Positions 61,470-63,196 of a DNA stretch of 63,196 bases are shown here, piece by piece; position 1 is the stretch's first letter, and every line of letters begins with the position of its first letter. Source of the DNA: Bacteroidota bacterium (GTDB lineage: Bacteria > Bacteroidota > Ignavibacteria > Ignavibacteriales > Ignavibacteriaceae); NCBI GenBank assembly GCA_022562275.1, contig JADFPP010000008.1:1-63196 (forward strand). The letters run 5' to 3'. The notes under the pieces were generated by a model. It searched no databases. It worked only from the letters and a program-made list of their open reading frames with translations, and had not been told where the DNA came from. The position numbers and the translations under genes were made by a program.

Positions 61470-61982
61470 CTACGCAATAAGTGTCTCCACATAATAATTG
61501 TAAGTTTGCTCATCAAATGCAGCAAAAATAACTTTTTCAATTTCAATATTTTCATTCAGGAATTTTGTTACTTCATCTATTACTATTTTTGCTGCTCTCT
61601 CTAACGGGAATCTATAAACTCCTGTACTTATTGCGGGAAATGCAATTGATTTAATTCCATTTTCAACAGCAATTTTTAAAGAATTGTGATAGCAGCTTGC
61701 AAGCAACTTATCTTCATTAGAATTTCCCCCGCTCCAAACGGGACCAACTGTATGGATAACATATTTTGCCGGCAGGTTATAACCTTTTGTTATTTTTGCT
61801 TCACCCGTTTTACATCCGTTAAGTGTTTTGCACTCCTCCAAAAGTTCTTTTCCTGCAGCACGATGAATGGCACCATCCACTCCCCCGCCGCCAAGCAATG
61901 ATGTATTTGCTGCGTTAACTATCGCATCAACTTTAAGTTTGGTTATGTCGCTTTTGTGTATTTCTATTTTGTTAATCATCAT
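61470..61982 (-). CDS. macro-domain O-acetyl-ADP-ribose deacetylase
   Basis: 170 residues. A single macro domain of the YmdB type: [27 protein letters not shown] near 17 (the NAAN and GGGGVDGAI loops; split here as [11 protein letters not shown] and [14 protein letters not shown]) and the phosphate loop [14 protein letters not shown] near 127. Removes acetyl or ADP-ribose groups from its substrates. The ribosome binding site GGGGAGG lies inside the left end of the DUF559 element, eight bases before the start codon; ATG 61982 and 61979 are both possible. Confidence 0.93.
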
Positions 61983-61988
61983 TTCTCA

Positions 61989-62493
61989 ACCTCCCCTAAA
62001 TCCCCTCCTTATAAAGGAGGGGACTTGAGTTTATTAAAAATATTATTGATATTAAATTAAAGAGTATATAGGAATATCTCAATATGACATTGCATTATAA
62101 TAGAACAAAAGAAAAATGGCGGAGAAAAGACTTACGCAAAAAATCAACCAAAGCAGAAAAAATTTTATGGGAGTATTTAAGGAATAGGAACTTAGCAGGA
62201 TTTAAATTCAAACAGCAGTACAGTGTTGATTCGTTTATAATTGATTTTTACTGTCCAAAAGTTAAGTTAGGAATTGAAGTTGATGGCGAAGTTCATTTTA
62301 CTGAAGAAGCAAAAGATTATGATGAAAATCGTTCGGGATTTCTATCTGATTTTGGAATTGAAATAATCAGGTTTCACAATGATGAAATATATAATAACCT
62401 TAAAGTCGTTTTAAATACTATTGAAGAAAAACTAAAAATATTAGAAAAATTAATACAAAAAGCCCCTCCTTACTAAGGAGGGGTTTGGGGAGG
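61989..62493 (+). mobile_element. 505-bp DUF559 element with palindromic inverted ends
   Basis: Left end 61989-62022: ACCTCCCC, a short linker, then the hairpin CCCCTCCTT-ATA-AAGGAGGGG. Right end 62463-62493: hairpin CCCCTCCTT-ACT-AAGGAGGGG, linker, then GGGGAGGT. The two ends are inverted copies of each other of about 30 bp. The single gene inside is the DUF559 endonuclease-like ORF. Its last codons and those of kbl both lie within the right end. No clear target duplication is seen. Confidence 0.7.
62084..62476 (+). CDS. DUF559 (Vsr-like) endonuclease-domain protein
   Basis: 130 residues. [20 protein letters not shown] near 18, [20 protein letters not shown] near 46 with the conserved Asp, and [10 protein letters not shown] near 68 with Glu and Asp are the DUF559 core, related to very-short-patch repair nucleases and other PD-(D/E)XK enzymes. 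[15 protein letters not shown] closes the domain. The C-terminal KAPPY is encoded by the palindromic element end. A catalytic core is intact, so it may cut DNA and help spread the element. That function is inferred. Confidence 0.85.
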
Positions 62494-63196
62494 TCGAATG
62501 GACATTTCTTGTTTCACTTCTTTAAACTTCTCAATTGCAAAATCAAGATCTTCTTTTGTGTGAGCTGCTGATATCTGCACTCTTATTCGTGCCGTATTTT
62601 TTGGAACGACCGGGAAGAAAAAACCAATTACATATACACCTTTCTCCAATAATTTTGCTGCCATCTTTTGTGAGAGCACCGCATCGCCTAACATAATAGG
62701 TACGATTGGATGAATACCATCTTTAATTTCAAACCCGGCTTCTTTTATTTTCTCACGAAAGTATTTGGTATTCTCTTCAAGTCTGTCTCTCAAATCAGTT
62801 GTGGAACTAAGCAGATCCAACACCTTAAGTGATGCAGCCACAATACTTGGAGCAACTGTATTTGAGAAAAGATACGGGCGGGATCTTTGTCTTAATAGAT
62901 CTACAATTTCTTTTCCGGCGCTGGTGTAGCCGCCGCTTGCTCCACCGAGTGCTTTGCCCAAAGTCCCTGTGATGATATCGATTCTTCCCATCACATCGTT
63001 GTATTCATGTGTGCCTTTGCCGTGCTTGCCCATAAATCCTACTGCGTGTGAATCATCAACCATTACCATCGCGTCATACTTATCCGCAAGATCGCAAATA
63101 CCTTTTAGGTTTGCAACATATCCATCCATCGAAAAAACACCATCGGTTGCAATAAGGATTTGCTTTGCGTTGTTTGCTTTTGCTTCTTTCAATTTT
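62473..63196 (-). CDS. kbl: glycine C-acetyltransferase (2-amino-3-ketobutyrate CoA ligase), N-terminus cut by window edge
   Basis: The last 241 codons are in the window and the reading frame runs off the right edge. Fold-type I PLP enzyme of the alpha-oxoamine synthase family: [20 protein letters not shown], the PLP Lys in [18 protein letters not shown], and [20 protein letters not shown]. With threonine dehydrogenase it breaks threonine to glycine and acetyl-CoA. The tail SIRPPQTPP and the stop lie in the right end of the DUF559 element, so the natural C-terminus has been replaced. Confidence 0.92.

Follow-up and report, generated by a model that had tools for sequence, protein, structure and literature searches.

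A gene for a Vsr-like DUF559 nuclease, enclosed by two inverted ends that each carry a triplex motif, forms a real unit that occurs at many sites and is widespread among bacteria. In the Ignavibacteriaceae genome studied here it lies between kbl and a macro-domain gene, and it is probably a minimal mobile element, in which the nuclease gene stands between two intrastrand-triplex repeats of the BoxC/PIT/TM class. It is best read as a mobile unit resembling a REPtron, with a nuclease akin to Vsr and to an EDxHD homing endonuclease. If this is true, the unit represents a type of mobile element that combines a PD-(D/E)XK nuclease with triplex-forming ends, and DUF559, a widespread family, gains a testable role. 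Furthermore, the association of a nuclease gene with BoxC/PIT/TM repeats in many phyla, including ycjD of Escherichia coli K-12, makes the spread of these repeats accessible at the bench.

Organization of the unit

The window, by which the whole analysed stretch of 63,196 nucleotides is meant, contains the following features.

61470..61982, - strand: macro-domain gene (PF01661), from its ORF and profile match; it adjoins kbl also in relatives without the unit
61988..62023, - strand: left end, with third strand 61988-61997 and hairpin 62001-62023; 10 of 10 triplets on the - strand
61989..62494, no strand: whole unit of 506 bp, inverted triplex-motif ends around one DUF559 gene, from the hairpin search and the relatives' loci
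62084..62476, + strand: DUF559 (PF04480) PD-(D/E)XK/Vsr-like nuclease of 130 aa, from its ORF, profile match and conserved residues
62463..62494, + strand: right end, with hairpin 62463-62483 and third strand from 62487 (GGGGAGGT); 8 of 9 triplets
62473..63196, - strand: 3' part of kbl, the host gene, from its ORF and comparison with genome G003

The exact hairpin arms span 62002-62022 on the left and 62463-62483 on the right, and the tails are ACCTCCCC at 61989-61996 and GGGGAGGT at 62487-62494. The left end consists of ACCTCCCC, a spacer and the hairpin CCCCTCCTT-ATA-AAGGAGGGG, and the right end of the hairpin CCCCTCCTT-ACT-AAGGAGGGG, TTT and GGGGAGGT. This hairpin pattern occurs twice in the window, compared with a mean of 0.00 in 100 shuffles of it. 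An earlier note on this DNA had described inverted hairpin ends around one Vsr-like nuclease gene, and both hairpins are indeed in place, while the reading frame between them, free-standing according to the ORF list, belongs to DUF559. The same note had the right end encode the last residues of the nuclease as well as of Kbl, which is correct: within the loop of this end's hairpin, TAA on the + strand terminates the nuclease and overlaps with TAG on the - strand, which terminates Kbl, and the right end supplies Kbl with seven extra residues (RPPQTPP). The first ATG of the macro-domain gene follows GGGGAGGT at a distance of six bases, and GGGGAGG of the left end, just upstream, is a plausible ribosome binding site of that gene. 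The arm AAGGAGG/CCTCCTT (window 62463-62483) is identical to the Shine-Dalgarno/anti-Shine-Dalgarno sequence; this likeness has no counterpart in the other repeat types and may be a coincidence.

The ends as intrastrand-triplex motifs

Each end is made up of a pyrimidine arm, a purine arm and a mirrored purine tail, which together constitute an intrastrand-triplex motif; the mirrored tails had escaped the earlier note. The purine arm AAGGAGGGG reads GGGGAGGAA when reversed, and is mirrored in the tails GGGGAGGTT and GGGGAGGTC. Under the purine-motif code (G on G-C; A or T on A-T), all ten triplets fit in the left end and eight of nine in the right end, and these are the sole triplex motifs of the 63-kb window (8 triplets, at most one mismatch). 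The ends also have the features of the BoxC/TM class, namely a pyrimidine (Y) arm, a purine (R) arm and a mirrored R third strand, with stems of 6-15 and loops of 1-6, the limits set in the available sections of Holder et al. (PMC4666352). The window ends are accordingly classed as predicted triplex formers of the BoxC/PIT/TM class described there. Repeats of this class have been known since the 1990s, were present in more than 260 genomes in one survey and have been linked to genome instability; TM loci are unstable in E. coli, and PIT elements lack terminator activity (PMC4666352). Triplex formation was shown in vitro for TM_ECO, and the same sections report no stable triplex in vivo by footprinting and no mobility gene for these repeats (PMC4666352).

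The third strand is a general property of the hairpins that accompany DUF559. Strict hairpins were defined by perfect arms of 7 or more with 4 or more G/C and a loop no longer than 5. Of 317 such hairpins near DUF559, 217 have a complete third strand, compared with 11% (maximum 15%, 200 shuffles) when flanks were swapped; one locus without upstream sequence (L037) was excluded from this count. In hairpins with at least 60% fit, the third strand has G facing G in 1481 of 1547 cases, and T (501) or A (347) facing A in 848 of 892. Among hairpins more than 1 kb from DUF559, 32 are of this kind and 25 of these have a complete third strand; lone copies therefore share the structure of the ends, since these distant hairpins are triplex motifs too.

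The nuclease

The window protein matches PF04480 with 108.3 bits (cut-off 20.6, E=2.3e-31) over residues 11-117. DUF559 and MTES_1575 were the sole profile matches of the nuclease, HUH Y1 transposase not being among them; PADLOC gave partial matches (DpdF, mREase_II, Hhe), and the NCBIfam match of the window protein is an unnamed DUF559 model, below the cut-off of that model. In an alignment of 69 sequences, E25, W29, F42, Q45, D54, F55, G68, H71 and D80 are invariant and E65 and D67 nearly so (D67 in at least 90%), and the Vsr-type catalytic residues E, D, D/H, H and D are present in the window protein. The residues E73/D102/D115/H119/D124 of Caulobacter VsrA, as given in the accessible part of PMC12907096, could be matched to these by order and motif only, the last being the least sure. 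VsrA and E. coli YcjD have the same DUF559 domain, and the catalytic residues of the window protein are those proposed for VsrA (PMC12907096). DUF559 has been tied to Vsr, and mismatch repair was proposed as the role of VsrA (PMC12907096, PMC1189080); in the portions available, these accounts and that of YcjD (PMC12817139) draw no connection to repeats or mobility. In Foldseek, the predicted structure of the window protein (pLDDT 85.8) resembles 3hrl (E=1.2e-7) as well as 3r3p, which is the homing endonuclease I-Bth0305I (E=5.2e-4), and a five-sequence profile agrees with this fold (3r3p, E=0.0018), I-Bth0305I being the second PDB match.

The kbl-macro site with and without the unit

kbl and the macro-domain gene are adjacent in several relatives. 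In G004, which is of the same genus and has a 96% identical Kbl, the kbl stop is followed closely by the macro-domain gene with no unit and no motif between them, and in G003, also of the same genus, the unit occupies the same place in the same orientation. These loci bear out the discrete unit of nuclease and palindromic ends that the earlier note had postulated, with an unoccupied site in G004 and a filled site common to G003 and the window. The unit was not present at the kbl-macro junction of G004, G001, G005, G020, G030 or G034, and no triplex motif was detected at kbl in the seven loci scanned (G001, G005, G034, G023, G030, G020 and G004; the G005 locus ends 106 bp past kbl, and kbl of G023 is not next to the macro-domain gene). 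The kbl site of G006 contains a single degenerate motif, and that of G030 a plain pyrimidine/purine hairpin, which is not a triplex motif. No target-site duplication was evident at kbl.

The earlier note further supposed that stop codons are repaired by the element. In G003, kbl ends with TGA directly next to the unit, and the same codon is CGA in the window; the read-through to TAG in the hairpin is therefore a later point change that followed insertion, and stop-codon repair by the unit is not supported. The comparison of kbl 3' ends that the note had proposed thus revealed the states with and without the unit, but not a stop supplied at insertion. What remains of its minimal selfish element is the discrete unit and the recurrent architecture, without the repair of stop codons.

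Distribution of the nuclease and its motifs

DUF559 was found in 41 of 59 relatives. Near their stand-alone DUF559 genes, 124 strict hairpins occur in 51.1 kb, compared with 18 in 398.7 kb at distances above 1 kb (2.43/kb versus 0.045/kb), and purine-arm-first hairpins were absent. With two of 63 stand-alone loci dropped for short flanks, at least one strict hairpin is present at 55 of 61 loci, and 27 have them on both sides. In other genomes, the best 80 of 244 confirmed loci come, by record title, from Bacteroidota, Ignavibacteria, Planctomycetes, Nitrospirae, Calditrichaeota, Cloacimonadota, Patescibacteria and others. A strict hairpin accompanies 68 of these 80, on both sides in 51, with 174 hairpins in 64.0 kb near DUF559 versus 15 in 282.5 kb away (densities of 2.72 and 0.053); purine-arm-first hairpins numbered 0 near and 1 away.

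The full triplex motif was sought with a scanner requiring 8 triplets with at most one mismatch, for which two of 75 relatives' loci and seven of the 80 other loci were dropped; the 75 include 12 in-frame copies, and L001 and L002 (the place of L006) were excluded throughout. A motif lies within 450 bp of DUF559 at 62 of 73 loci in relatives and at 43 of 73 in other genomes (best 80 of 244), leaving 11 and 30 loci, respectively, at which this scanner found no motif. Shuffled flanks gave 0, and 450-bp control windows gave 14/888 and 5/532. In addition, among the matches listed per family, the motif was near 0 of 30 Y1_Tnp and 0 of 30 ParE genes of the relatives. The earlier note had taken a lack of hairpins in DUF559 homologues as the result that would speak against it, and such a lack is confined to a minority. 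Its suggested search of relatives for further copies and empty sites uncovered the same architecture in most homologues, together with the unit-free kbl junctions. The pairing of nuclease and triplex repeat is general across many bacterial groups. In phages, tblastn gave two matches only. Insertion at gene ends, which the note also claimed, is frequent: facing ORF edges at units are stops in 82 of 133 cases (p=0.009), with a median distance of 28 bp.

Repeat type, nuclease kinship and insertion sites

For the comparison of arms and nucleases, L037, L063, L070 and L072 (truncated or short match) were removed from the 75 relatives' loci, and 6 of the 80 other loci were removed for a stop in the matched stretch; of the 145 left, 17 lacked strict hairpins, which gave a set of 128 loci. 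Pairs of one genome, of one site, above 90% identity or with both members fused were skipped in the arm comparison. Arm distance correlates with nuclease identity at r=-0.60 (permuted 0.00, sd 0.03; 0/1000 permutations), and 42% of loci have the same arm as their nearest neighbour by protein, versus 10% when permuted. Furthermore, the arm is shared by 6% of 65 same-genome pairs and by 43% of 1710 different-genome pairs of at least 50% identity. By these sequence comparisons, the repeat type tracks the nuclease and not the genome. The co-variation is explained by linked inheritance without recognition, physical linkage being sufficient.

Stand-alone nucleases of at least 58% identity form 151 pairs, of which 139 share no flanking gene and 12 do (about 1.3 kb on each side); related units with related ends therefore recur at new sites. 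L029 and L057 (80%) are a different-site pair within one genome. For in-frame pairs of at least 58% identity, the host is common to 33 of 33. As read from the loci compared, the gene and its ends were acquired as one and reappear jointly at new sites. The ends vary in step with the nuclease, and further ends, single or in pairs, lie elsewhere in the genomes.

Some DUF559 loci are flanked by long direct repeats. At L007 (G000:C67, gene 1501-1815), 144 bp that include the end of the upstream gene are repeated across the DUF559 unit with 88% identity, which resembles a long target duplication. L228 (G000:C73:1243-2467) has 334 bp (405-738) that match the L008 unit at its flank and end with 80.5% identity and lack the gene, and is perhaps a gene-less copy carrying host flank.

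In-frame copies in metH and hsdR

All 12 relatives' loci in which DUF559 (E<=1e-15) lies in an ORF of more than 250 aa have the unit read in frame. Eight of these copies are in MetH, between ...MKKAVAYLEPFI and ATVKGDVHDIG..., and four are in HsdR, just before WHTQGSGKS. The sixth DUF559 copy of the window's own genome, L004 (G000:C33:1125-1442), lies in frame in a type I restriction subunit gene. A strict hairpin is present upstream in all 12 copies and also downstream in eight. In Pfam searches of one locus each, the metH insert (L013) separates the B12-binding_2 and B12-binding domains of methionine synthase, and the hsdR insert (L004) precedes the SWI2_SNF2 ATPase of the restriction subunit. 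The unit is presumably tolerated in reading frames because pure purine or pyrimidine tracts hold no stop codon; arms and tails of this kind would be open in any frame, so that the unit would fit at gene ends or within genes.

Among 30 metH loci, sampled from 56 genomes with metH, 20 have a linker of 33-38 residues, nine have an insert (one cut by the contig), and one (G030) has a 55-residue, scar-like linker with a hairpin-like remnant. No triplex motif was seen by eye in the 20 canonical linkers. The metH hosts with an insert are not one clade: the tree of the C-part implies six changes, at least three of them forced by starred branches, and that of the N-part seven, at least two of them forced. 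The eight metH inserts form one exclusive clade and the four hsdR inserts another. Identities of metH inserts and hosts show no positive correlation (r=-0.33, 28 pairs). The MetH hosts of G009 and G016 are 81% identical and their inserts 56%, and the tree joins the inserts of G009 and G023. The AU test rejects a G009+G016 grouping of inserts (p=0.023), a grouping chosen after seeing the data, and does not reject G009+G016+G023 (p=0.38). This discord between insert and host hints, if thinly, at homing.

Solo repeats

The window's own genome has 12 places of the CCCCTTCTCTT type, two of them beside DUF559. A wide occurrence of the hairpins without the gene had been named in the earlier note as evidence against the element; to the letter this is what the genome contains, but the lone hairpins can be read as isolated repeats of the same kind. 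Solo repeats turned up in all three pattern searches, also in genomes without DUF559. Hairpins of the three types are present in 27 of 41 genomes with DUF559 versus 5 of 18 without (p=0.010), and after subtraction of two per DUF559 gene the remaining hairpin counts are statistically indistinguishable between these two groups of relatives (MWU p=0.71). Genomes with a type-A nuclease have a type-A hairpin in 6 of 8 cases versus 13 of 51 for the rest of the 59 genomes (p=0.010), or 5 of 8 versus 13 of 51 for solos only (p=0.049); both associations are weak, with the genome lists assigned by hand and L037 left aside.

By eye, 7 of 10 type-A solos of the window's genome (G000) lie inside larger repeats with inverted ends of their own, as do all seven multi-copy solos examined from G035. 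Such hairpins are therefore carried as passengers by MITE-like elements, and another transposase may have multiplied the solos of G000 and G035. Solo copy number does not serve as proof of nuclease-driven spread, given the null cis-corrected count and the location of multi-copy solos in other repeats. The larger dispersed repeats of G000 (L227, L229-L233, L235), G035 (L219-L225) and G038 (L238) contain paired or single hairpins and have the inverted ends GAGACTGTGT... and TCACCTTACGCA.... G030 has tandem arrays of about 200-bp units with two triplex-type hairpins each, one adjoining a DUF559 gene and one without it (L064, G030:C1 near 3354000; L237, G030:C1:198551-200769).

Proposed mechanism and alternative explanations

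By analogy with REPtrons (PMC8266576) and homing endonucleases (PMC3943268), as far as the accessible text of these papers describes them, the nuclease most likely acts on the ends. It would recognise its own end folded on single-stranded DNA, as hairpin and third strand, and would nick at the folded end or at the empty target, whereupon repair or replication would copy the unit or its ends to a new site, as has been proposed for TnpA_REP and REPs. Some lineages, those in metH and hsdR, keep to a single site, where homing may be their mode of spread. The unit shares with REPtrons (TnpA_REP/RAYT with REP/REPIN; PMC8266576) a small nuclease gene, palindromic flanks, solo and paired copies and co-variation, although REPtrons combine a HUH Y1 transposase with simple hairpins, whereas here a PD-(D/E)XK Vsr-like nuclease is combined with a triplex motif. 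A nuclease that is flanked by and co-varies with palindromic repeats, the mark of a REPtron, was found here as well, and its co-variation may be linkage only. With BoxC/PIT/TM_ECO repeats (PMC4666352) the ends have in common the pyrimidine/purine hairpin, the mirrored third strand, short loops and inverted pairs; those repeats are described there without a mobility gene, whereas here they are tied to a nuclease gene.

Homing in the strict sense, in which DUF559 cuts a specific empty allele and repair copies the gene in, with the repeats as remnants or carrier sequence, is unlikely to account for the unit as a whole. It draws on the fold shared with the EDxHD enzyme I-Bth0305I (PDB 3r3p; PMC3943268) and on metH and hsdR, where each set of copies is an exclusive in-frame clade at one site, the metH hosts are not one clade, and the G009/G016 inserts diverge more than their hosts, with the post hoc AU rejection (p=0.023) set against a three-genome grouping that is not rejected. 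Yet in 139 of 151 related stand-alone pairs the two members have no flanking gene in common, and the 130-aa protein lacks the long DNA-binding extension of EDxHD enzymes (PMC3943268), while it has repeat ends and occupies many unrelated sites. There is only a slim chance that BoxC-like repeats came first as insertion targets, with DUF559 inserting into them or being kept for the repair of structure-induced breaks. The solo repeats in all pattern searches and in genomes without DUF559, the lone degenerate motif of G006, the plain hairpin of G030 and the instability of TM loci in E. coli (PMC4666352) would fit such an origin, but the seven scanned kbl loci without the unit (G023 with another neighbour, G005 short) have no motif, nor was one seen by eye in the 20 canonical metH linkers, and repeats that pre-existed locally should follow the genome, whereas across sites and genomes the repeat type goes with the nuclease. 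It is harder still to regard the hairpins as bidirectional terminators or as mRNA ends of a small nuclease gene, a very improbable reading despite the right end with TTTTT, which resembles an intrinsic terminator for kbl. PIT elements lack terminator activity in the accessible account (PMC4666352), motifs lie within the metH and hsdR reading frames, and the co-variation of the third strand together with 0 of 60 control genes led to rejection of a regulatory hairpin as a sufficient explanation.

E. coli ycjD, BoxC and plasmid loci

Extended to other bacteria, the preferred reading of a mobile unit leads to a broader proposal: DUF559 proteins, including E. coli YcjD, could be the missing mobility enzymes of BoxC/triplex repeats across bacteria, in that the Vsr-like nuclease would recognise the folded triplex end, spread it with or without its own gene, and be the source of homing lineages that lie in frame within metH and hsdR. 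This is quite possible, short of being likely. In K-12, ycjD is flanked by sapF and fabI, and downstream of it is a type-A (TTA) motif. The 37-mer beside ycjD (from L240) is dispersed, occurring in 5365 of 5426 E. coli genomes at a median of 15 places, and is taken for BoxC/TM_ECO on the basis of its length, structure and TTA loop, as the available description of that repeat gives them (PMC4666352). Among 60 E. coli records spread over the ranking, the 37 with ycjD have 11-23 BoxC-like places (mean 18.1, the ycjD place included) and the 23 without it have 1-13 (mean 6.8), a contrast (MWU p=3e-10) that ignores phylogeny and is confounded with phylogroup. According to the accessible part of PMC12817139, absence of ycjD follows phylogroups, and the contrast therefore reflects few independent events. 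The sapF-fabI interval is not a clean empty site, an efflux operon being there in other strains (PMC12817139). No link of DUF559 or ycjD with BoxC or triplex repeats was found among the papers listed in one open-licence library. The pairing of nuclease and repeat may account for BoxC in E. coli.

Plasmid and E. coli records, for which 13 of 37 plasmid-record DUF559 matches were taken in, have a motif (at most two mismatches) at 11 of 14 DUF559 loci, three loci being the same gene, ycjD, and none was found at L245, L247 and L249. The motif-bearing loci include two Synechocystis plasmids, Azospirillum, Sphingomonas, Sinorhizobium, Deinococcus and Photobacterium. On the Photobacterium plasmid pGJ3-1 (L250, 1902-3231), 16 triplex motifs in alternating orientation follow the DUF559 gene. 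On the Pseudanabaena galeata plasmid pPg_02 (L254), a single annotated reading frame of 4.9 kb contains DUF559 and triplex motifs, and may be another case of in-frame insertion.
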